Source of the DNA: Pseudomonadota bacterium
GTDB taxonomy: Bacteria; Pseudomonadota; Alphaproteobacteria; Acetobacterales; Acetobacteraceae
Assembly (NCBI GenBank): GCA_018240405.1
Contig: JAFEFW010000633.1
Span: forward strand, 1 to 47,471
DNA length: 47,471 nt
Direction of reading: 5' to 3'
A program made the translations under genes and the position numbers. Positions 2,462 to 21,218 of the stretch are shown in pieces. The number at the start of each line of letters is the position of its first letter. Position 1 is the stretch's first letter. The notes below the pieces were generated by a model. That model ran no database searches, was not told the origin of the DNA, and saw only the letters and a list, made by a program, of their open reading frames with translations.

Positions 2462-3250
2462 CTACAGCCCGCGCTCGCGCTTGATCTGGTCCCAGGCGGC
2501 GTTGATCCGCGCCACCTTGTCGCTGGCCTTCTTGATGAAATCCGCCGGCACGCCGCGCGCCGCCAGCGAATCCGGGTGGTTCTCCCGCATCAGCTTCTTC
2601 CACGCCGTGCGCAGCTCCTCGCCGGTGGCGGAGCGGTTCACCCCAAGCTCGCGATACGGGTCGACGTCCGGCTGCCCGGCCGGCGCCCGCGATTGCCCAC
2701 CAAAGGCGCGGTCCCACGCCACCTGGTCCAGCCCGAAGCGGCGCTGGACCACCCGCAGGAACGCCTGCTCCTTGCCGTTCAGCGGCCCATCGGCACGGGC
2801 GATAACGAACAGCGCGCGCAGCACCTCCTCCAGCATGCCGCGGTTGTCGGAGAACGTTTCGCCAAGCTGCGCCGCATAGGGCTCGAACGCCTCGGCCGTG
2901 TCGCGGGCATTGTCGAAGATCCGGGCGATGCCCTGGGCCGATTGCGGGGGAATCCGGAAGCTGGCCTTGAAGGCGTCGATCTCGCTGCGCTTCACCGGTC
3001 CGTCCGCCTTGCTCAGCTTGGCGGCGAGCACCGTCACGGCGATCGCGAACACCTCATCCTTGCGGCCAAGCAGCCCGGCGACGCGCAGCGGGTTGAACAC
3101 GGCTTCGGAGTTGCCGAACGGCAGCTTGAAACCCTGCGTCGAGCCGACGTCAGCCGCATGGCCCAGGGCAGCGCCGACCACGGCGCCGACCGGCCCACCT
3201 ACAAAGAAGCCGGCCGTGCTGCCGATCACCTTGCCCCAGTATCCCATCAC
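2462..3250 (-). CDS. djlA: TerB/DnaJ-domain protein (DjlA-like co-chaperone)
   Basis: A 262-residue protein. Residues 8-31 are a glycine-rich hydrophobic stretch that could span or insert in the membrane. Residues about 60-175 form an all-helical TerB-like domain. Residues about 197-262 are a C-terminal J domain with the HPD tripeptide at 225-227, needed to stimulate DnaK ATPase. This order (N-terminal membrane segment, TerB, C-terminal J) is that of DjlA, a membrane-anchored DnaK partner. The start could be either of two successive Met codons. The gene is upstream of and co-oriented with tRNA-Met. Confidence 0.85.
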   Translation of the reverse strand: MMGYWGKVIGSTAGFFVGGPVGAVVGAALGHAADVGSTQGFKLPFGNSEAVFNPLRVAGLLGRKDEVFAIAVTVLAAKLSKADGPVKRSEIDAFKASFRIPPQSAQGIARIFDNARDTAEAFEPYAAQLGETFSDNRGMLEEVLRALFVIARADGPLNGKEQAFLRVVQRRFGLDQVAWDRAFGGQSRAPAGQPDVDPYRELGVNRSATGEELRTAWKKLMRENHPDSLAARGVPADFIKKASDKVARINAAWDQIKRERGL

Positions 3251-3310
3251 AGCAGACTATCACGCCGTCCCCCAGGCCGGCAAAGCAAGTCCCGCGTCGT
3301 GACGGAATTT

Positions 3311-3856
3311 TCAGCTGCCGGCCAGGGAGGGATCCTTCAGCCGCGTGTCCTGGCCGATCACCGGATCGGCGATGGCATCCTCCAGGCTCTTGGCGCCCTT
3401 CCACTGATCGGCCGGACGCGAAGCCTCGCCGGGTTGGATCTGGTCGATGCCCCAGTAGACCTCCAGCCGGTGATCGTCGGGGTCGCGGAACTCGACGGCG
3501 ATCTGCACCCCGGCTCGGCGGCGGCCGTCGAAGTCGATCGGCACGTTGTGCCGGCGCAGATGCGCGCGGACGCGGAACACGTCGTCCAGCGTCGGCACCT
3601 CAAACGCCAGATGATGCATGCCCGCGCCGGGCGGGCATTCGGCGGTGGCCTGGAACAGCGCGATGCCGTGGTGGTCCGGATTGCAGCGCAGGAACACCGC
3701 GCCGGCGGGCTGCATCTCCGCGCCATACTCATCCGAGACCTCGAAACCCAGCACCTCGGTATAGAAGCGCCGGGAGCGGGGGATATCCGCGACATGCAGT
3801 GCGATGTGGCCGAGTTTGCCCAACTGGAACGGTGGGCGGCGCGGGGCATCGGTCAT
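3311..3856 (-). CDS. VOC-family metalloenzyme (extradiol-dioxygenase/glyoxalase fold)
   Basis: A 181-residue protein built of two beta-alpha-beta-beta-beta units. The three metal ligands of the type I extradiol dioxygenase pattern are visible: His17 in GHIALHV, a His in GMHHLAFEV and a Glu in RLEVYW. This suggests a catechol- or diol-type 2,3-dioxygenase or a related VOC enzyme; the substrate is unknown. The reading frame is open further upstream, but the ATG at 3856 has AGGAGG about 8 nt before it and starts the conserved fold. It is divergent from the DUF1445 gene at 3933, so the short gap must hold both promoters. Confidence 0.85.
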   Translation of the reverse strand: MTDAPRRPPFQLGKLGHIALHVADIPRSRRFYTEVLGFEVSDEYGAEMQPAGAVFLRCNPDHHGIALFQATAECPPGAGMHHLAFEVPTLDDVFRVRAHLRRHNVPIDFDGRRRAGVQIAVEFRDPDDHRLEVYWGIDQIQPGEASRPADQWKGAKSLEDAIADPVIGQDTRLKDPSLAGS

Positions 3857-3932
3857 GACATGCTTCCTCCTCTGCTGTGGATTCTTTCCACCGGCCTGAT
3901 AGCCTGACCGGAAATACTGACGGAGAGCCAGG

Positions 3933-13215: not shown

Positions 13216-13965
13216 ATGGCAACCGACAAACGTGTGGTTCTGGTAACCGGCGCGCAGCAGGGTATCGGGCGGGCAATGGCTATCGCCTTTGCCCAGGCCG
13301 GCGCCGATGTTGTGATCAACTGGCTGGACAGCGAAACCGCCGCTCAGGAGGTCGCCGCTGCGGTCCGCGCCACCGGGCGCGACGCATTGCTGGTGCGAGC
13401 CGACATGGGGCAGGTGAGCCAGATCACGGCCCTCGTCGAGCAGGCCGCGGCGTGGAAGGGCCGCGTGGACGTCCTGATCAACAACGCCGGGGTGTTTCCG
13501 CGCGTCCAATTCCTCGACATGACCGAAGCCGAGTGGGACTTCGTCCACAATATCAACTTGAAGGGCACCGCCTTCTGCGCCCAGGCCGCGGCGCGGGTCA
13601 TGGTCGCACGTGGCATCCAGGGGGCGATCGTCAATCTGTCGTCCCGCGCCATGTCCGGCACGCCGGTCGGCGTTCATTACTCAGCCACCAAGGCCGGCGT
13701 GGTCGGACTGACCCGCTCCATGGCGCTGGCCCTGGCGGAGCACCGCATTCGCGTCAACGCCATTGCCCCTGGCCTGACCGACACCGCCCAGCCGCGTTAC
13801 GGCAACACCGAGGACGAACTGAAGCAGATGGCGCTCGCCGTTCCCCTCGGCCGCATGGCCACCCCCGAGGACATCGCGAAGCTCGGCGTGTTCCTGGCAT
13901 CCGATGATGCCAGCTACATCACCGGGCAGGTGTACCACATCAACGGTGGTGCCTATATGGGATAG
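13216..13965 (+). CDS. Short-chain dehydrogenase/reductase (FabG-like)
   Basis: A 249-residue classical SDR. The nucleotide-binding motif TGAQQGIG is at 11-18 and NNAG at 89-92. The catalytic tetrad is Asn114, Ser142/143, Tyr155 and Lys159 (HYSATKAG). PGLTDT follows the catalytic helix. The C-terminus ITGQVYHINGGAYMG is typical of 3-oxoacyl-ACP reductase and sugar or alcohol dehydrogenase members. Asn35 rather than Asp after the second strand suggests NADP(H) preference, but weakly. The substrate is unknown. GGGGACATG gives an acceptable start. Confidence 0.88.
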   Translation: MATDKRVVLVTGAQQGIGRAMAIAFAQAGADVVINWLDSETAAQEVAAAVRATGRDALLVRADMGQVSQITALVEQAAAWKGRVDVLINNAGVFPRVQFLDMTEAEWDFVHNINLKGTAFCAQAAARVMVARGIQGAIVNLSSRAMSGTPVGVHYSATKAGVVGLTRSMALALAEHRIRVNAIAPGLTDTAQPRYGNTEDELKQMALAVPLGRMATPEDIAKLGVFLASDDASYITGQVYHINGGAYMG

Positions 13966-14161
13966 AGGGCGCCGACAGAGCCAGCGAGGCCGGCGTTCAA
14001 TCCATGTGCCGGAGCCGGAGATCGAACGTCCCGGAAACGGTCCGATCGTTGATGCCGCAGGACCATTCAGGACGCGCTTGCCGTCAGGTGCGGCTGGCCT
14101 GCCGCCGAGGGCACGGGTAGCGTCGTCGCGTTATACCAGACGGACTCGAGGAGGCATCGCT

Positions 14162-15301
14162 GTGGACAATAGAGACATGTTTGCACTGCCGCTCGATGCC
14201 GCTGCCTTGCTGCAGGCCTACGATGCACAGGGTGTGCACCGTACCGGTCATCTGGCTGACGCCGAGAACGCGGATTGGCTCGTCGACCTCGCCACTCAGC
14301 TTGGCGCCGACGCCAGGCTCGAGTCCTTCAGCATGGATCGGATCGAGCCGGCAGACTGCTATGTCGAAATCGCCAGTCAGCGTATCGCCGGCACGCCAGT
14401 CTTCGACGGTGCCTTCACCAGTCCCGCCGGCGTCGAAGGCGTGCTCGGCGCCACCGTCGGGCTCGAAACGCTCGGCCCGACGGCGATCTACCAGCCGACC
14501 TATGAGGCGTACCGTCAGTCGCGGAACTGCACAGCACTGGTCACAGTCACCAAGGGCGGCAGTCCCGGTCTCGCCGTGTTCAACGCGGAGCGGTTCCTGC
14601 AGCCCTACGACCTGCCCAATCTGCTGGTGCCCAGCGAGTACGAGGCACAACTGGCCGCCGCCGCGCAGCAGGGCGCGCGGGTTCGGGTTGTCTGCGACGC
14701 GCGCCGCGTTCCGTCCCGTCCGAGCAACGTGGTTGCGACGGTGGCAGGCAGTGATCCGGACGTGCCGGCGGTCGTGGTAATGACGCCGCGCAGCGGGTGG
14801 TGGCACTGCGCGTCGGAGCGCGGGGGCGGCATCGTCTGCTGGCTATCCGCACTGGCGGCTGTGCTGCGGCATCGCGCCGCCGCGACCGTCACTTTTCTGG
14901 CTTCCACCGGCCACGAACTCGGTCATGTCGGATTGCACGACTTCATGCAGCGCCGGCCGCACCTGACGACCACGGCGACCTGGCTGCATTTCGGCGCAAA
15001 TCTGGGCGCCCGGGACAGCGTCCTGACACTGCAGTCGCCGCAGGACGACCTCCGCCGCCTGGGTTGCGATGCGCTGGAAGCGGTCGGCGGACCGCATCCC
15101 GCGCTGTCGCCCCCGGCCACGGTCCCAAACGGCGAGTCGCGCGATATTCACCGCGCGGGCGGTCGCTATCTGACCTTCGTCGGATCGAACACCCTGTTCC
15201 ACCTGCCGTCGGACCGTTACCCGGATGCCGTCGACATCCCCGCGGTGGGCCGGATTGCTGCCGCTGCTGCCCGGGTTGCCGCCGCCATGGCGGGGGCTTG
15301 A
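14162..15301 (+). CDS. M28-like peptidase-fold protein lacking the usual zinc ligands
   Basis: A 379-residue protein. The second half follows the M28 aminopeptidase layout, with FLASTGHELGHVGLHDFM in the place of the M28 F..xxGEExGLxGS segment. The usual HxD ligand site reads MTPRSGWW, and the GAxDNxSG site reads CASERGGGIV, so most zinc ligands are missing. It is probably an inactive or altered member of the fold. GAGGAGG at 14148-14154 lies 7 nt before GTG at 14162, which is preferred over the ATG at 14177. The function is not known. The next gene is an ODP-type metallo-beta-lactamase protein 118 nt downstream. Confidence 0.65.
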   Translation: MDNRDMFALPLDAAALLQAYDAQGVHRTGHLADAENADWLVDLATQLGADARLESFSMDRIEPADCYVEIASQRIAGTPVFDGAFTSPAGVEGVLGATVGLETLGPTAIYQPTYEAYRQSRNCTALVTVTKGGSPGLAVFNAERFLQPYDLPNLLVPSEYEAQLAAAAQQGARVRVVCDARRVPSRPSNVVATVAGSDPDVPAVVVMTPRSGWWHCASERGGGIVCWLSALAAVLRHRAAATVTFLASTGHELGHVGLHDFMQRRPHLTTTATWLHFGANLGARDSVLTLQSPQDDLRRLGCDALEAVGGPHPALSPPATVPNGESRDIHRAGGRYLTFVGSNTLFHLPSDRYPDAVDIPAVGRIAAAAARVAAAMAGA

Positions 15302-17126: not shown

Positions 17127-20100
17127 GTGGCAGATAAGGACTGTCAAATTTCAGTATGCGCGGATATGGTCCTGAGATTCCGGGTTGCCGCAGCAGGGTT
17201 CGTTGCGGCTTCGGCCCTTGTGCCGCACGCGGCGTCGGCTCAGGCGAATCTCTGGAATAGTTATCAAGGCTCGGGCGGGCAGATCGAGCTCTCCTACGCT
17301 CCGCCAACCGGCGGCCAAAACGCAACGTTGCGCTATCTCGGTGCGGCAATTTCCAATGGCAGTCTGCCGAACGCGATTGCCATCAACAAGAACAACGGCA
17401 ATTCCTGGACCGTCGACACCGGGTCGGAAGGCATGGTGATCACGGCTGACTATCTTTACACGGCTTTTGGCATCGACGCCCGGAGTTTCAACAAGCCAAG
17501 TACGCAGACGATCACCTATACAAGCTCTGGACTGACCTATACCGGGTTTTACCAGAATCTGAACGTTGGCCTTTACTCCTCCAATCAGCAGGGAACCGGA
17601 ACGCTCGCGGCGACGGCGGCGCAGATGCCCGTCTTTGTCAGCACGTCTATGTCGGTCGCGGGAGGGTCAACCACGAGCTTCCTGTGTGCGCCGAACTGTA
17701 CGCTCTCGGCCAAGTCGCTGGAGCAGATGGGCATTGGCTTCGGCCGTGGTTACCCAAACAGCTACCCGCTGCCCGCCGGCGCACCGCCGCGCGCTGATAC
17801 CAATCCGCTGTTGAATCTGACGGCAGCCACCGGGGCAAATCTGGGATCGATGGCTCCCGGCTACGTGGTAACCCGCAGCGGATTGTTGCTCGGACTGGCC
17901 CCCAGCCAGATGGCAGGAACCACGTTCGCGAAGTTGTTACCTATTAGCATCCAGCCGCAGTCGAACCCAAGTGCCTACCGGGTCGCGGCTACCCTCAATG
18001 ACTGGCAGACGCCGGCGATGACCATGGTGATCGCCGGGGCGGCCGCCAGAACCAACGGCACCTTCTACGGCTCGCTGCTGGTCGATACCGGCATCGGAAA
18101 TATCGAACTGGCGACAAGCACGTCGACCGATTACGGTTTCGTCGCCAATCCGGCGAATCCCGGCCAAAGCTCAACGATCACGGTTTATCTGCCAGGCCAG
18201 GGATCGGCCGGCCAGCCGCTCGGCTACACGCTGGTCTATCAGGGGGACTGCAGTAGCCTGACCCCAAATACCTGCCCGCCGTACTCGATGCCGGCATCCT
18301 CCCTCAGCCCGGTCTACCCGACCAATTCCGGCAACAAGCCCACCGATGGGATCGCCGGCGTAAGCCCGCAAATCCAGCCGACGCCGTTCATGAACACCGG
18401 CATTCGTTTCCTTGAGTATTTCAACGTGGTCTACGATCCGGTGCTCGGAATGATCGGCTACCAGGTCAATCCCTCGGGGTTCGGGGAACTCCTGCCGGCC
18501 GCATCGCCCGCACTTGGCCTGCAGGGAGCGGTCGACATACCGAGCGGAACGAACGTAACGCTGCCAGTATTTCTGTTCGAGCAGGTGAACAACAGCAGTG
18601 CCCAGGCCACCGTCGCGTTGTCCACCGCCGGATCCGTTTCAATATCCGCGCCGATTTCCGGTGCGATCTATTGTTCGCCGACAGGCTGTTCCACGCCGGG
18701 ACTGGAAATCGCCGCGGGCCGCTTCGTCCTGAGCGGGCTGAACACGTACAACGGCGCGACCCAGATCGATCCTGGTGCCACCATGGCGTTGAGCGGCAGC
18801 GGCTCGATCGCCGCGTCCAGTGGCGTCACCGCAAACGGAACGTTCGACATATCCGGGACGATGGCTGGCGCGACGATCCAGAGTCTGGCCGGCGGTGGCA
18901 CGGTCGCGCTGGGCAGCCAGAGCCTGACGGTCGCGGCAGCCAGCGGAACATTCACCGGCGTCATCCAGGATGGCGGCCTGGCCGGAGGGGCAGGCGGCGC
19001 ACTGACGGTCAGCGGCGGCACACAGACTCTGGGAGGCGCGAACACCTATACCGGCCCCACCACGATCACGCCTGGCGCCGCGCTGGCGTTGATCGCCGGG
19101 GGCCAGATCGCGCACTCCAGCCAGATCGTCGCCGACGGCATCTTTGACATTGCGGCCACCAGCGCCGGCGCCACGATCCGGTCCCTGGCCGGCACCGGCG
19201 CGGTGAACCTGGGCGGCCAGACCCTGACGCTGTCGAACGCAAGTGGGAGCTTCGCTGGCACGATCGGCGGCGCCGGCGGCCTGGCCGTCGCCGGTGGCAC
19301 CCAGGCGCTGACAGGCAGCAATACCTATTCAGGCGGCACATCCGTCACCGGTGGGGCGACGCTCGCCATCAACGCCGACGCCGCACTGGGTGCGGCAGCC
19401 GGGGCGCTGAGCCTGGACAACGGAACCCTGCTCGCCCTTGGCGATGTCGCCAGCGCGCGCACTCTGCGGGTCCTTGGCGGCGGCGGCACGCTGAACGCTG
19501 CGGCGGCTTCGATCAGCTTCACCGGTCCCGTCACCATCGACGGTCCGTTGAACACCTATGGCCATGTTGTCCTGGTCAAGGGCGGCGCCGTCGGCGGCAT
19601 ACTCGCGGTCAACGGCGACCTGACCGGAAGTGACCTCTACGTAGCCGGGAGCGGGACGCTGAGCGGCGTCGGGCGCGTCCACACGCCAACGCGGGTCGAC
19701 GGATCGATCGCGCCGGGCAACAGTCCTGGCACACTGACCTTCACGGCGCCTCTGGTCCTGGGCGCCGGATCGCTATCGCGCTTTGCAATCGATGGCACTG
19801 GCACGGGGAGTGGCGCCGGCAATTTCAGCCGGCTGGTCCTGGTTGGCCCGGCGGCCGGCCTGAGTGCGAACGGGACGCTGGCGCCGCAGCTGCGCGGCAT
19901 CAGCGGCAGCGCAAGCAACAGCTACGTACCGGCGATCGGCCAGGCCTTTGCCGTCATCGCGGCACAAGCCGGCATCAGCGGCGGCTATACGGCTCTGCTG
20001 CAACCTGACGGCCTGGCCGCCGGCACGCGCTTTGATGCGCTGTACTCCAACAATGAAATCGTGCTTGTGGTGACGCCCGCTGCCTATAGCGGACTGCAAG

Positions 20101-21218
20101 CCGCCGGCCTGACCGAGAGCGCCACCCAGGTGGCGGTGGGAACCGCTTTGGACGCTGCGCGGCCCATCGCGGGGCAGCGCATGACGCCCGGCCAGGCCGC
20201 CCTCTACGGACCGCTCTATACGCTACCGGCCGGCGCGATCGCCGGCACGCTGGAGCAGCTATCGCCAAACGTCTATGGCGACGCGCTGATGGGCACGCGG
20301 GACAGCTGGTACCTGATCAGCGGCGCCATCGCGGATCAACTGGCAGCCCGGCGAGGTGGGCAGTTGGCGCGCGATGCCCAGGTCTCTACCGACGGCGGCC
20401 GGACCCTGTGGCTGACCGGCCTTGGCCAGTTTGGTACTGTCGCCGGCAACGGCAATGTCGGCTACAGCAGTTCCTTGGGCGGCGCGGCCGGGGGCATCGA
20501 TCTGGCCTTCGGTTCGGATTTTCTGGCAGGCGCGGCGTTCGGGTTCGCCAGCCAGTCAACCTCAGCGAAGAATGCAGCCTCGTTTTCCGGCCAGTCGCTG
20601 CAGCTGATGCTCTATGGCTCTGCCAATCAGGGAATAACCTTCCTGGAGGCCCAGGCGGGTGTCCTGTTCAACGAAGGTACCGCGACACGGCCGCTCGCCG
20701 TCTATGGCCTGCAGGCGAAGGGTGACACCGGCGGCGCTGGTGGTGGTGGCAGCCTGCGCGCTGGCGTCCGGCTGCAGGCCGATGGCTGGCAGGTCGAGCC
20801 CGCCCTGACGCTCGCGGGGATGGCGCTGTCGCAGCGTGGCGTGACCGAGACTCAGGCGGGGGCTGTTGGACTGACCGTGTCGAGTGCGCAAATCGGCAGC
20901 CTGCAGACGCAGCTTGGCGCCAGGGCAGAGCGGCGCTTTGCGCTGGATCGCAGCCTGTCTGTTGTGCCGGGGGTGCAGCTGGGCTGGCTGCACGAATTTC
21001 TCGACAGCCGCGCCACGACCGGTGCGGCTTTCATCGGAGCGCCGGGCGCGCCATTCACGACACAGAGCGCGACCATCGGCCGCAACTGGGCGGTGCTCGG
21101 GGTTCGCGCGGCGCTGGAGACCGCCGGTCCGGTGTCCGGCTACGCCGGTTACACCGGAATGGTGAACGGCAGTGCCACCGCGCAAACAGTTACGGCGGGT
21201 CTGCGGGTCGTCTGGTGA
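17127..21218 (+). CDS. Autotransporter with pepsin-like aspartic peptidase passenger
   Basis: A 1363-residue type V secreted protein. A signal peptide ends near AASA (about 38). Residues 60-455 carry pepsin-like motifs: DTGS with Asp97, a flap-like TITYTSSGLTYTG with Tyr131, LLLGLAPS at 253-260, a second DTG with Asp320, and GIRFLEYFNVVYDPVLGMIG, which matches the C-terminal end of pepsins. The two Asp are 223 apart. Residues 530-800 hold PATR-type repeats (NTYxGxTxIxxGA). Residues about 1090-1363 are the outer-membrane beta-barrel, ending in Trp. Paired Cys (FLCAPNC, YCSPTGC) could form disulfides. GTG at 17127 has GAGAGA 6 nt upstream; ATG at 17166 is an alternative without a visible site. 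Confidence 0.85.
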   Translation: MADKDCQISVCADMVLRFRVAAAGFVAASALVPHAASAQANLWNSYQGSGGQIELSYAPPTGGQNATLRYLGAAISNGSLPNAIAINKNNGNSWTVDTGSEGMVITADYLYTAFGIDARSFNKPSTQTITYTSSGLTYTGFYQNLNVGLYSSNQQGTGTLAATAAQMPVFVSTSMSVAGGSTTSFLCAPNCTLSAKSLEQMGIGFGRGYPNSYPLPAGAPPRADTNPLLNLTAATGANLGSMAPGYVVTRSGLLLGLAPSQMAGTTFAKLLPISIQPQSNPSAYRVAATLNDWQTPAMTMVIAGAAARTNGTFYGSLLVDTGIGNIELATSTSTDYGFVANPANPGQSSTITVYLPGQGSAGQPLGYTLVYQGDCSSLTPNTCPPYSMPASSLSPVYPTNSGNKPTDGIAGVSPQIQPTPFMNTGIRFLEYFNVVYDPVLGMIGYQVNPSGFGELLPAASPALGLQGAVDIPSGTNVTLPVFLFEQVNNSSAQATVALSTAGSVSISAPISGAIYCSPTGCSTPGLEIAAGRFVLSGLNTYNGATQIDPGATMALSGSGSIAASSGVTANGTFDISGTMAGATIQSLAGGGTVALGSQSLTVAAASGTFTGVIQDGGLAGGAGGALTVSGGTQTLGGANTYTGPTTITPGAALALIAGGQIAHSSQIVADGIFDIAATSAGATIRSLAGTGAVNLGGQTLTLSNASGSFAGTIGGAGGLAVAGGTQALTGSNTYSGGTSVTGGATLAINADAALGAAAGALSLDNGTLLALGDVASARTLRVLGGGGTLNAAAASISFTGPVTIDGPLNTYGHVVLVKGGAVGGILAVNGDLTGSDLYVAGSGTLSGVGRVHTPTRVDGSIAPGNSPGTLTFTAPLVLGAGSLSRFAIDGTGTGSGAGNFSRLVLVGPAAGLSANGTLAPQLRGISGSASNSYVPAIGQAFAVIAAQAGISGGYTALLQPDGLAAGTRFDALYSNNEIVLVVTPAAYSGLQAAGLTESATQVAVGTALDAARPIAGQRMTPGQAALYGPLYTLPAGAIAGTLEQLSPNVYGDALMGTRDSWYLISGAIADQLAARRGGQLARDAQVSTDGGRTLWLTGLGQFGTVAGNGNVGYSSSLGGAAGGIDLAFGSDFLAGAAFGFASQSTSAKNAASFSGQSLQLMLYGSANQGITFLEAQAGVLFNEGTATRPLAVYGLQAKGDTGGAGGGGSLRAGVRLQADGWQVEPALTLAGMALSQRGVTETQAGAVGLTVSSAQIGSLQTQLGARAERRFALDRSLSVVPGVQLGWLHEFLDSRATTGAAFIGAPGAPFTTQSATIGRNWAVLGVRAALETAGPVSGYAGYTGMVNGSATAQTVTAGLRVVW

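Follow-up and report, generated by a model that had tools for sequence, protein, structure and literature searches.

Can an autotransporter carry a pepsin-like enzyme to the cell surface? The question is raised by a stretch of 47,471 nucleotides of contig JAFEFW010000633.1, from a bacterium of the Acetobacteraceae (the whole stretch is hereafter the window), in which a frame at 17127-21218 on the plus strand encodes 1363 amino acids counted from GTG. An earlier note on the window had proposed that this gene specifies an autotransporter with a two-lobed aspartic peptidase as its passenger. We conclude, with a probability of roughly 0.8, that the product belongs to the type Va (AIDA-like) autotransporters and carries, as its N-terminal passenger, a predicted, presumably catalytic, pepsin-type aspartic endopeptidase. 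The computed basis consists of a signal peptide recognised by eye, a two-lobed fold, two catalytic Asp residues with a flap Tyr, passenger repeats, a barrel, and an architecture that recurs in other genomes. The parts are located as follows.

17127..21218, plus strand: whole gene, autotransporter with predicted pepsin-type passenger (open reading frame and upstream sequence)
17166..17240, plus strand: predicted signal peptide, residues 14-38 (read by eye)
17250..18467, plus strand: predicted pepsin-type two-lobed aspartic peptidase domain, residues 42-447 (80-row alignment, AF2 model, fold matches)
17415..17423, plus strand: first catalytic motif DTG, residues 97-99, with Asp97 (Asp in 80/80 rows)
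17508..17546, plus strand: flap segment TITYTSSGLTYTG, residues 128-140, with Tyr131 (Tyr in 80/80 rows)
17724..17741, plus strand: QMGIGF, residues 200-205, likely N-lobe hydrophobic-hydrophobic-Gly element (both Gly in 80/80 rows)
18084..18092, plus strand: second catalytic motif DTG, residues 320-322, with Asp320, then Ile323 (Asp in 80/80 rows)
18393..18467, plus strand: C-terminal segment NTGIRFLEYFNVVYDPVLGMIGYQV, residues 423-447, parallel to the end of pepsin (family profile aligned with pepsin 1am5)
18489..20405, plus strand: passenger stalk with PATR-type repeats and the region before the barrel (Pfam, NCBIfam)
20406..21155, plus strand: PF03797 autotransporter beta-barrel, residues 1094-1343 (Pfam, E 1.5e-44)

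Conservation of the active site

Conservation was assessed in an alignment (A2) of 80 distinct rows, 79 stretches plus the window, which are 23-56% identical to the window. Rows were the best stretches of frames from loci L011-L086 covering at least 280 of 343 profile positions; the partial L044 and L084 were left out, as were L087-L089. Neither of the two patterns used for fetching covered a DTG motif; they sat at the GIGF element and at the C-terminal end. Asp97, Gly99, Ser100, Tyr131, Gly140, Gly202, Gly204, Trp293, Asp320, Gly322 and Asn423 were invariant in 80 of 80 rows, a count to be read knowing that confirmation of loci by tblastn and a hidden Markov model (HMM) favours sequences retaining the DTG motifs, and Asp437 was kept in 79. 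Because they are invariant in 80 distinct rows, the DTG and flap motifs are not there by chance. Both motifs in one chain and the flap-like segment with its pepsin-type Tyr had been pointed out in the earlier note, and their conservation in homologues bears this out: residue 98 is Thr in 76 rows and Ser in four, giving D-T/S-G throughout, and residue 321 is Thr in 75, Leu in two and Ser, Met or Val in one each, giving D-T/S-G in 76 of 80.

All 12 autotransporter-fused proteins that we found retain D-T-G at the first site, D-T/S-G at the second and the flap Tyr, and the first of two fused genes at L168 has Phe in place of Trp293. Seven divergent unfused members that were checked carry Asp at both sites, yet with departures. 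Thus, one Mycolicibacterium copy (L089) has DTGG and DTGA and the other, in two pieces, has a flap Leu and D-I-G; L121 has D-V-G; and L164 lacks the Trp. Comparison of the L014/L119 pair over the protease part gave a nonsynonymous rate (dN) of 0.086 and a synonymous rate (dS) of 0.26, indicating purifying selection.

Two residue-level details of the earlier proposal had to be changed. LLLGLAPS (residues 253-260), offered there as the hydrophobic-hydrophobic-Gly segment, aligns with a later LGL segment of the family, and its place is held by QMGIGF, which we take to be the equivalent of that element in the N-lobe of pepsin. The enzyme had also been called an acid protease. The residues favour a pepsin-type protease, but the word acid is unsupported, because Ile replaces pepsin Thr218 after the second motif (76 of 80 rows have Val, Ile or Leu there). 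A change at this position is linked to neutral-pH activity in renin in the part of the source available (PMC2761423). Judging from this residue, the predicted enzyme probably works best at a mildly acidic to neutral pH and not under strongly acid conditions.

The predicted fold and its link to mycobacterial PecA

The AF2 model of the domain and its fold matches describe a two-lobed pepsin-type structure over model residues 10-406, in agreement with the two-lobed passenger first proposed. Neither of the two outcomes that the earlier note gave as refuting its proposal, another fold or loss of the motifs in homologues, was seen. Family A1 enzymes are matched at 10-17% identity, and alignment with most mature pepsin-type enzymes begins at model residue 6-13. 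When the family profile was compared with the Protein Data Bank (PDB), the best match was 4ehc (E 2.8e-6), which belongs to the PecA/PE_PGRS35 and PE_PGRS16 proteases of mycobacteria (PF20729 PE-PGRS_C, NF038019); 4ehc is absent among the 50 structural matches listed. The same profile aligned the C-lobe with pepsin 1am5 187-320 and thus upheld the suggested parallel between the segment after the second Asp and the end of pepsin.

These alignments bear on the idea that the passenger is a retropepsin-like, single-lobe domain with a second DTG by chance. Some relatives do score against the Asp_protease_2, gag-asp_proteas or RVP models, and the first lobe of one scores against HIV protease chains. 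With the second Asp in 80 of 80 rows, a C-lobe that aligns with pepsin, both PF20729 lobes matched by L045 and a fold match that is two-lobed over the whole domain, we regard a single-lobe domain as very improbable.

At the level of family models, 57 of 80 relatives match PF20729 at E<=0.01. Its cut-off of 33 was passed by two of nine relatives scanned (37.5 and 35.1) and narrowly missed by L006 at 32.2; the 150-bit cut-off of NF038019 was reached by none of seven, the best scoring 24.8. The window protein matches neither model and has no PF00026 match at E<=10. Its genome likewise has no PF20729 match, while a control matched in Deinobacterium chartae, and none to PF00026, for which controls gave no match either. 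As neither model matches it, the domain is not filed in PF20729 or PF00026; its fold and active-site residues make it pepsin-type, and intermediates make it a relative of PecA.

Several observations weigh against a pepsin-type enzyme. The AF2 model is moderately confident, with 139 of 406 residues below pLDDT 70, and the Foldseek TM-scores are low (TMq 0.37-0.47, with a root-mean-square deviation (rmsd) of 6.9-13.6 A in the rows listed); VIA-align gave 3.6-5.1 A, and the model may place the lobes wrongly. The pepsin C-lobe stretch alone reached 12.3 bits (independent E 0.76), and the window domain by itself matches no Pfam, NCBIfam or PDB sequence, the link running via relatives. The four rows without Thr or Ser in the second motif (two rows from L028, with L052 and L065) depart from the pattern, the domain is rare (three of 146 related genomes, its own counted), and no neighbouring gene points to a substrate. 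Finally, three of the 50 structural matches listed belong to the allergen Bla g 2, which has the pepsin fold but no activity.

This last point belongs to another explanation, that the pepsin fold was retained in a module that serves binding or adhesion and performs no useful catalysis. Besides Bla g 2, plant xylanase inhibitors are non-catalytic pepsin-fold proteins. PE_PGRS16 showed no activity when its structure was solved, according to the portion of the source at hand (PMC6819658). Against such a module stand Asp97, Asp320 and Tyr131, unchanged in all 80 rows and in the 12 fused proteins although the rows are no more than 23-56% identical to the window, and we consider it unlikely.

The autotransporter part fits the earlier description. 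PF03797 is complete (255 positions matched) and the product ends in ...RVVW. PATR falls below the Pfam cut-off (25.4 bits versus 27), but the NCBIfam repeat model TIGR02601 passes (21.7 bits versus 19.85). At E<=10, PF03797 and PATR are the only Pfam families listed for the chain, and neither an S6 nor an S8 protease domain was found in the passenger. The coordinates first given, 17127..18490, cover only the N-terminal third of the gene. As a signal peptide, clear by eye, begins at the in-frame ATG at 17166 (codon 14), this codon is the likelier start. The predicted signal peptide, MVLRFRVAAAGFVAASALVPHAASA, is cut before QA, likely between ASA and QA, and Ala-Gln stands at the predicted cleavage place in all eight aligned autotransporter members. 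The window genome (681 contigs) has one other PF03797 match, G000:C664:3-2477:+ (L171), a frame cut by the contig start with a glycine-rich, adhesin-like passenger.

Distribution, fusion to the barrel and gene neighbourhood

With the window domain alone, viral contigs gave no match, and a scan of genome contigs gave 34 pattern matches and no relatives. The link was found via relatives in same-genus genomes, among them an autotransporter 56% identical to that of the window (L007) and more distant forms at about 30%, and one plasmid record, a stand-alone form in Methylobacterium bullatum found in a plasmid protein search. A six-row alignment then served as query for a collection of named genomes and yielded 79 loci, mostly of Alphaproteobacteria by title or tree label; Enterobacteriaceae, Yersiniaceae, Burkholderiaceae and Methylococcaceae also occur, as do single records titled Nakamurella, Mycolicibacterium, Chlamydiae, Kuenenia and Isosphaeraceae. 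The statement that bacterial pepsin homologues are few is an underestimate for this family, which has 79 loci in one scan, besides mycobacterial PecA. In genome samples that include the window genome, with at most five first-look candidates scored per genome, the six-row model (E<=1e-3) matched 14 of 396 genomes at the order level; with the 80-row model (E<=1e-8), the family gave matches in 17 of 398 genomes, the class in 10 of 385 and the phylum in 6 of 398.

Most members are stand-alone: 71 of 81 frames from L011-L086 stop at most 34 residues past the domain, and some genomes hold several copies (four matches in G031). Both facts suit digestion of extracellular peptides for nutrition, in which the stand-alone relatives would take part in soluble form. 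The patchy distribution within the family argues against it, as does the finding that none of the 20 window frames compared with Pfam belongs to a peptide-uptake family; we hold nutrition to be a tentative option.

Other arrangements were seen. L028:1532-6248:+, in a Methylococcus metagenome-assembled genome (MAG), has three family members consecutively. The domain is joined to beta-helix repeats (PF13229) at L088:3538-8379:+ (Isosphaeraceae-titled MAG, 1614 aa) and to such repeats plus fibronectin type III at L087:172-7617:+ (Kuenenia-titled MAG, 2482 aa). Two proteins from the genus of the window, L008:7130-10642:- (G019, 1171 aa) and L009:9284-12619:+ (G031, 1112 aa), have one family domain with D-L-G as second motif, followed by a stretch in which about 210 residues separate DSG from DTG, and finally Hint_2 (PF13403, E 8.4e-47 in L008). 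From their sequences they look like double aspartic-protease-like proteins with a Hint tail, the pepsin fold of the second stretch being a candidate only.

The earlier note had called for homologues with both motifs joined to PF03797. Pfam found PF03797 in all 12 proteins filed as fused, the window and eleven others from nine genomes in total (L007, L011, L013, L014, L118, L119, L153, two consecutive genes at L168, L169 and L170; L013 and L014 were assigned to genomes by coordinates and frame length). Eight proteins from seven genomes belong, by computed kinship, to the window's own family and four from two genomes to another family of the class (f66); the named genomes with fused forms from the window's family are Acetobacteraceae and Roseomonadaceae according to NCBI. 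In the named-genome scan, fusion occurs at four of 79 loci (L011-L014). The 12 fused forms fall, with unfused ones interspersed, inside one supported group of 34 rows, on a tree with several long branches and flagged skewed compositions. A single clade of fused forms, a grouping defined only once the tree had been seen, was rejected (approximately unbiased test, p-AU 3.6e-55), and the fusion label needs five changes on the tree. This distribution may reflect one gain with losses, or several gains.

Stalk length differs among homologues and protease domain length does not. This matters for the suggestion that self-processing is the main role, the domain cutting its own stalk or linker and being freed as a soluble protease. 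Precedents exist in PecA, which cuts itself and other surface proteins in mycobacteria (as far as the accessible part of PMC6819658 goes), and in subtilisin-like autotransporters, which may be anchored or released (PMC9289746, likewise available in part). No cleavage motif was identified in the present proteins and, because stalk length varies, no fixed site is evident; self-processing as the main role is a tentative option as well.

Some loci show the domain beside or near a fusion. In Roseococcus sp. SYP-B2431, a 485-aa family frame (L013:5692-7146:+) directly precedes the autotransporter L013:6938-10822:+; the two frames, each taken from stop to stop, overlap and are sisters in the tree (100/95). 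L168:4043-10990:+ (G848) is a tandem pair of autotransporter-borne pepsin-type genes with 285 of the last 290 residues identical and widely different protease domains. L018, L023, L026 and other Reyranella-type stand-alone loci share a conserved tail of about 19 residues, such as NGRVSHEYGGVTPG, which resembles the linker start in fused L118 and L153; by this likeness, the tail is possibly a relic of a lost fusion.

The window, L007 and L011 have no neighbouring frame that all three share. Five window frames match one locus each at 29-35% identity and belong to generic families (short-chain dehydrogenase, AMP-binding, PPK2, sensor kinase and response regulator by Pfam), and L007 and L011 share a PHO4 phosphate transporter (Pfam; 57% over 253 residues). 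The Roseococcus loci have neighbours in common among themselves, as expected within one genus. Two window frames, 13904-15301:+ (465 aa) and 2576-3907:+ (443 aa), are without Pfam match at E<=0.001.

Proposed activation and role, and place among known systems

During type Va secretion an unfolded chain passes through the outer membrane; folding of the stalk starts at its C-terminal end, and N-terminal modules come out last. Applied to the window protein, Sec would export the chain, the barrel would insert in the outer membrane and the stalk would fold outside; the N-terminal domain would emerge last, so that its two lobes would form only at the surface. Asp97 and Asp320 would then hold and activate the water that cleaves extended peptides, and Tyr131 would close the flap. 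Alignment with mature pepsin-type enzymes begins only about 11 residues after the predicted signal-peptide cut, so there is no room for a pepsinogen-like propeptide, and unfolded membrane passage would serve as the activity lock in its place. If the lobes can pair only outside, secretion itself would be the activity switch. By analogy with PecA, the likeliest role is the cutting or shedding of proteins at the cell's own surface, with self-release and feeding next.

The predicted enzyme shares features with several known systems. PecA and PE_PGRS16 are surface-associated bacterial aspartic protease domains with two DTG/DSG motifs, but theirs is C-terminal and delivered by type VII secretion, as described in the parts of the sources available, whereas that of the window is N-terminal on an autotransporter; in place of a PE domain and type VII export the window protein has a predicted signal peptide and a barrel, and the Pfam scan found no PE family in it. 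Family A1 (pepsin, cathepsin D, plasmepsin II, renin) has two lobes in one chain, two catalytic Asp and a flap Tyr, from which the window protein differs by its lack of a PF00026 match, its Ile for Thr218, its low identity and the missing propeptide. The cytoplasmic bacterial pepsins (Rawlings and Bateman 2009; shewasins) are also two-lobed aspartic peptidases, but have no signal peptide and are predicted to be intracellular (PMC2761423, available part), unlike the window protein with its predicted signal peptide and its barrel. In serine-protease autotransporters (SPATE/S6, subtilisin-like S8) the protease is likewise N-terminal, carried by a beta-helical stalk and barrel, and stays at the surface or is released, but it is of another catalytic class and fold; the accessible part of PMC9289746 names chymotrypsin-like, subtilisin-like and GDSL lipase divisions. 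In Rickettsia, RapL and APRc are proteases tied to surface proteins of alphaproteobacteria: from the source portions available, RapL, a predicted lipoprotein, is a putative serine protease that acts on other autotransporters (PMC10414592), and APRc is retropepsin-like (PMC4140852). No description of an aspartic protease passenger in an autotransporter was found in the literature searched, most subscription papers lying outside it, and the words aspartic, aspartyl and pepsin occur nowhere in the main text of the autotransporter papers searched. The parts are thus known from PecA-like surface proteases, cytoplasmic bacterial pepsins and serine-protease autotransporters, and their combination was not found in that literature.

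Taken together, we lean towards the view that aspartic peptidases form a further catalytic class of autotransporter, a propeptide-free pepsin-type endopeptidase that stays inactive until it folds last outside, drawn from a large, mostly unnamed bacterial pepsin-fold family displayed in several ways: on the autotransporter barrel, in Hint_2 fusions, in beta-helix fusions, on PE/PGRS proteins in mycobacteria and as apparently exported stand-alone forms. If this is true, the cargo of the secretion route would widen to include a two-lobed fold that has long-range contacts, and there would be a naturally occurring pepsin-like enzyme displayed at the surface. It would also link cytoplasmic bacterial pepsins, mycobacterial PecA and a broad Gram-negative family, and the origin of the two-lobed pepsin fold would therefore become testable on many new sequences.
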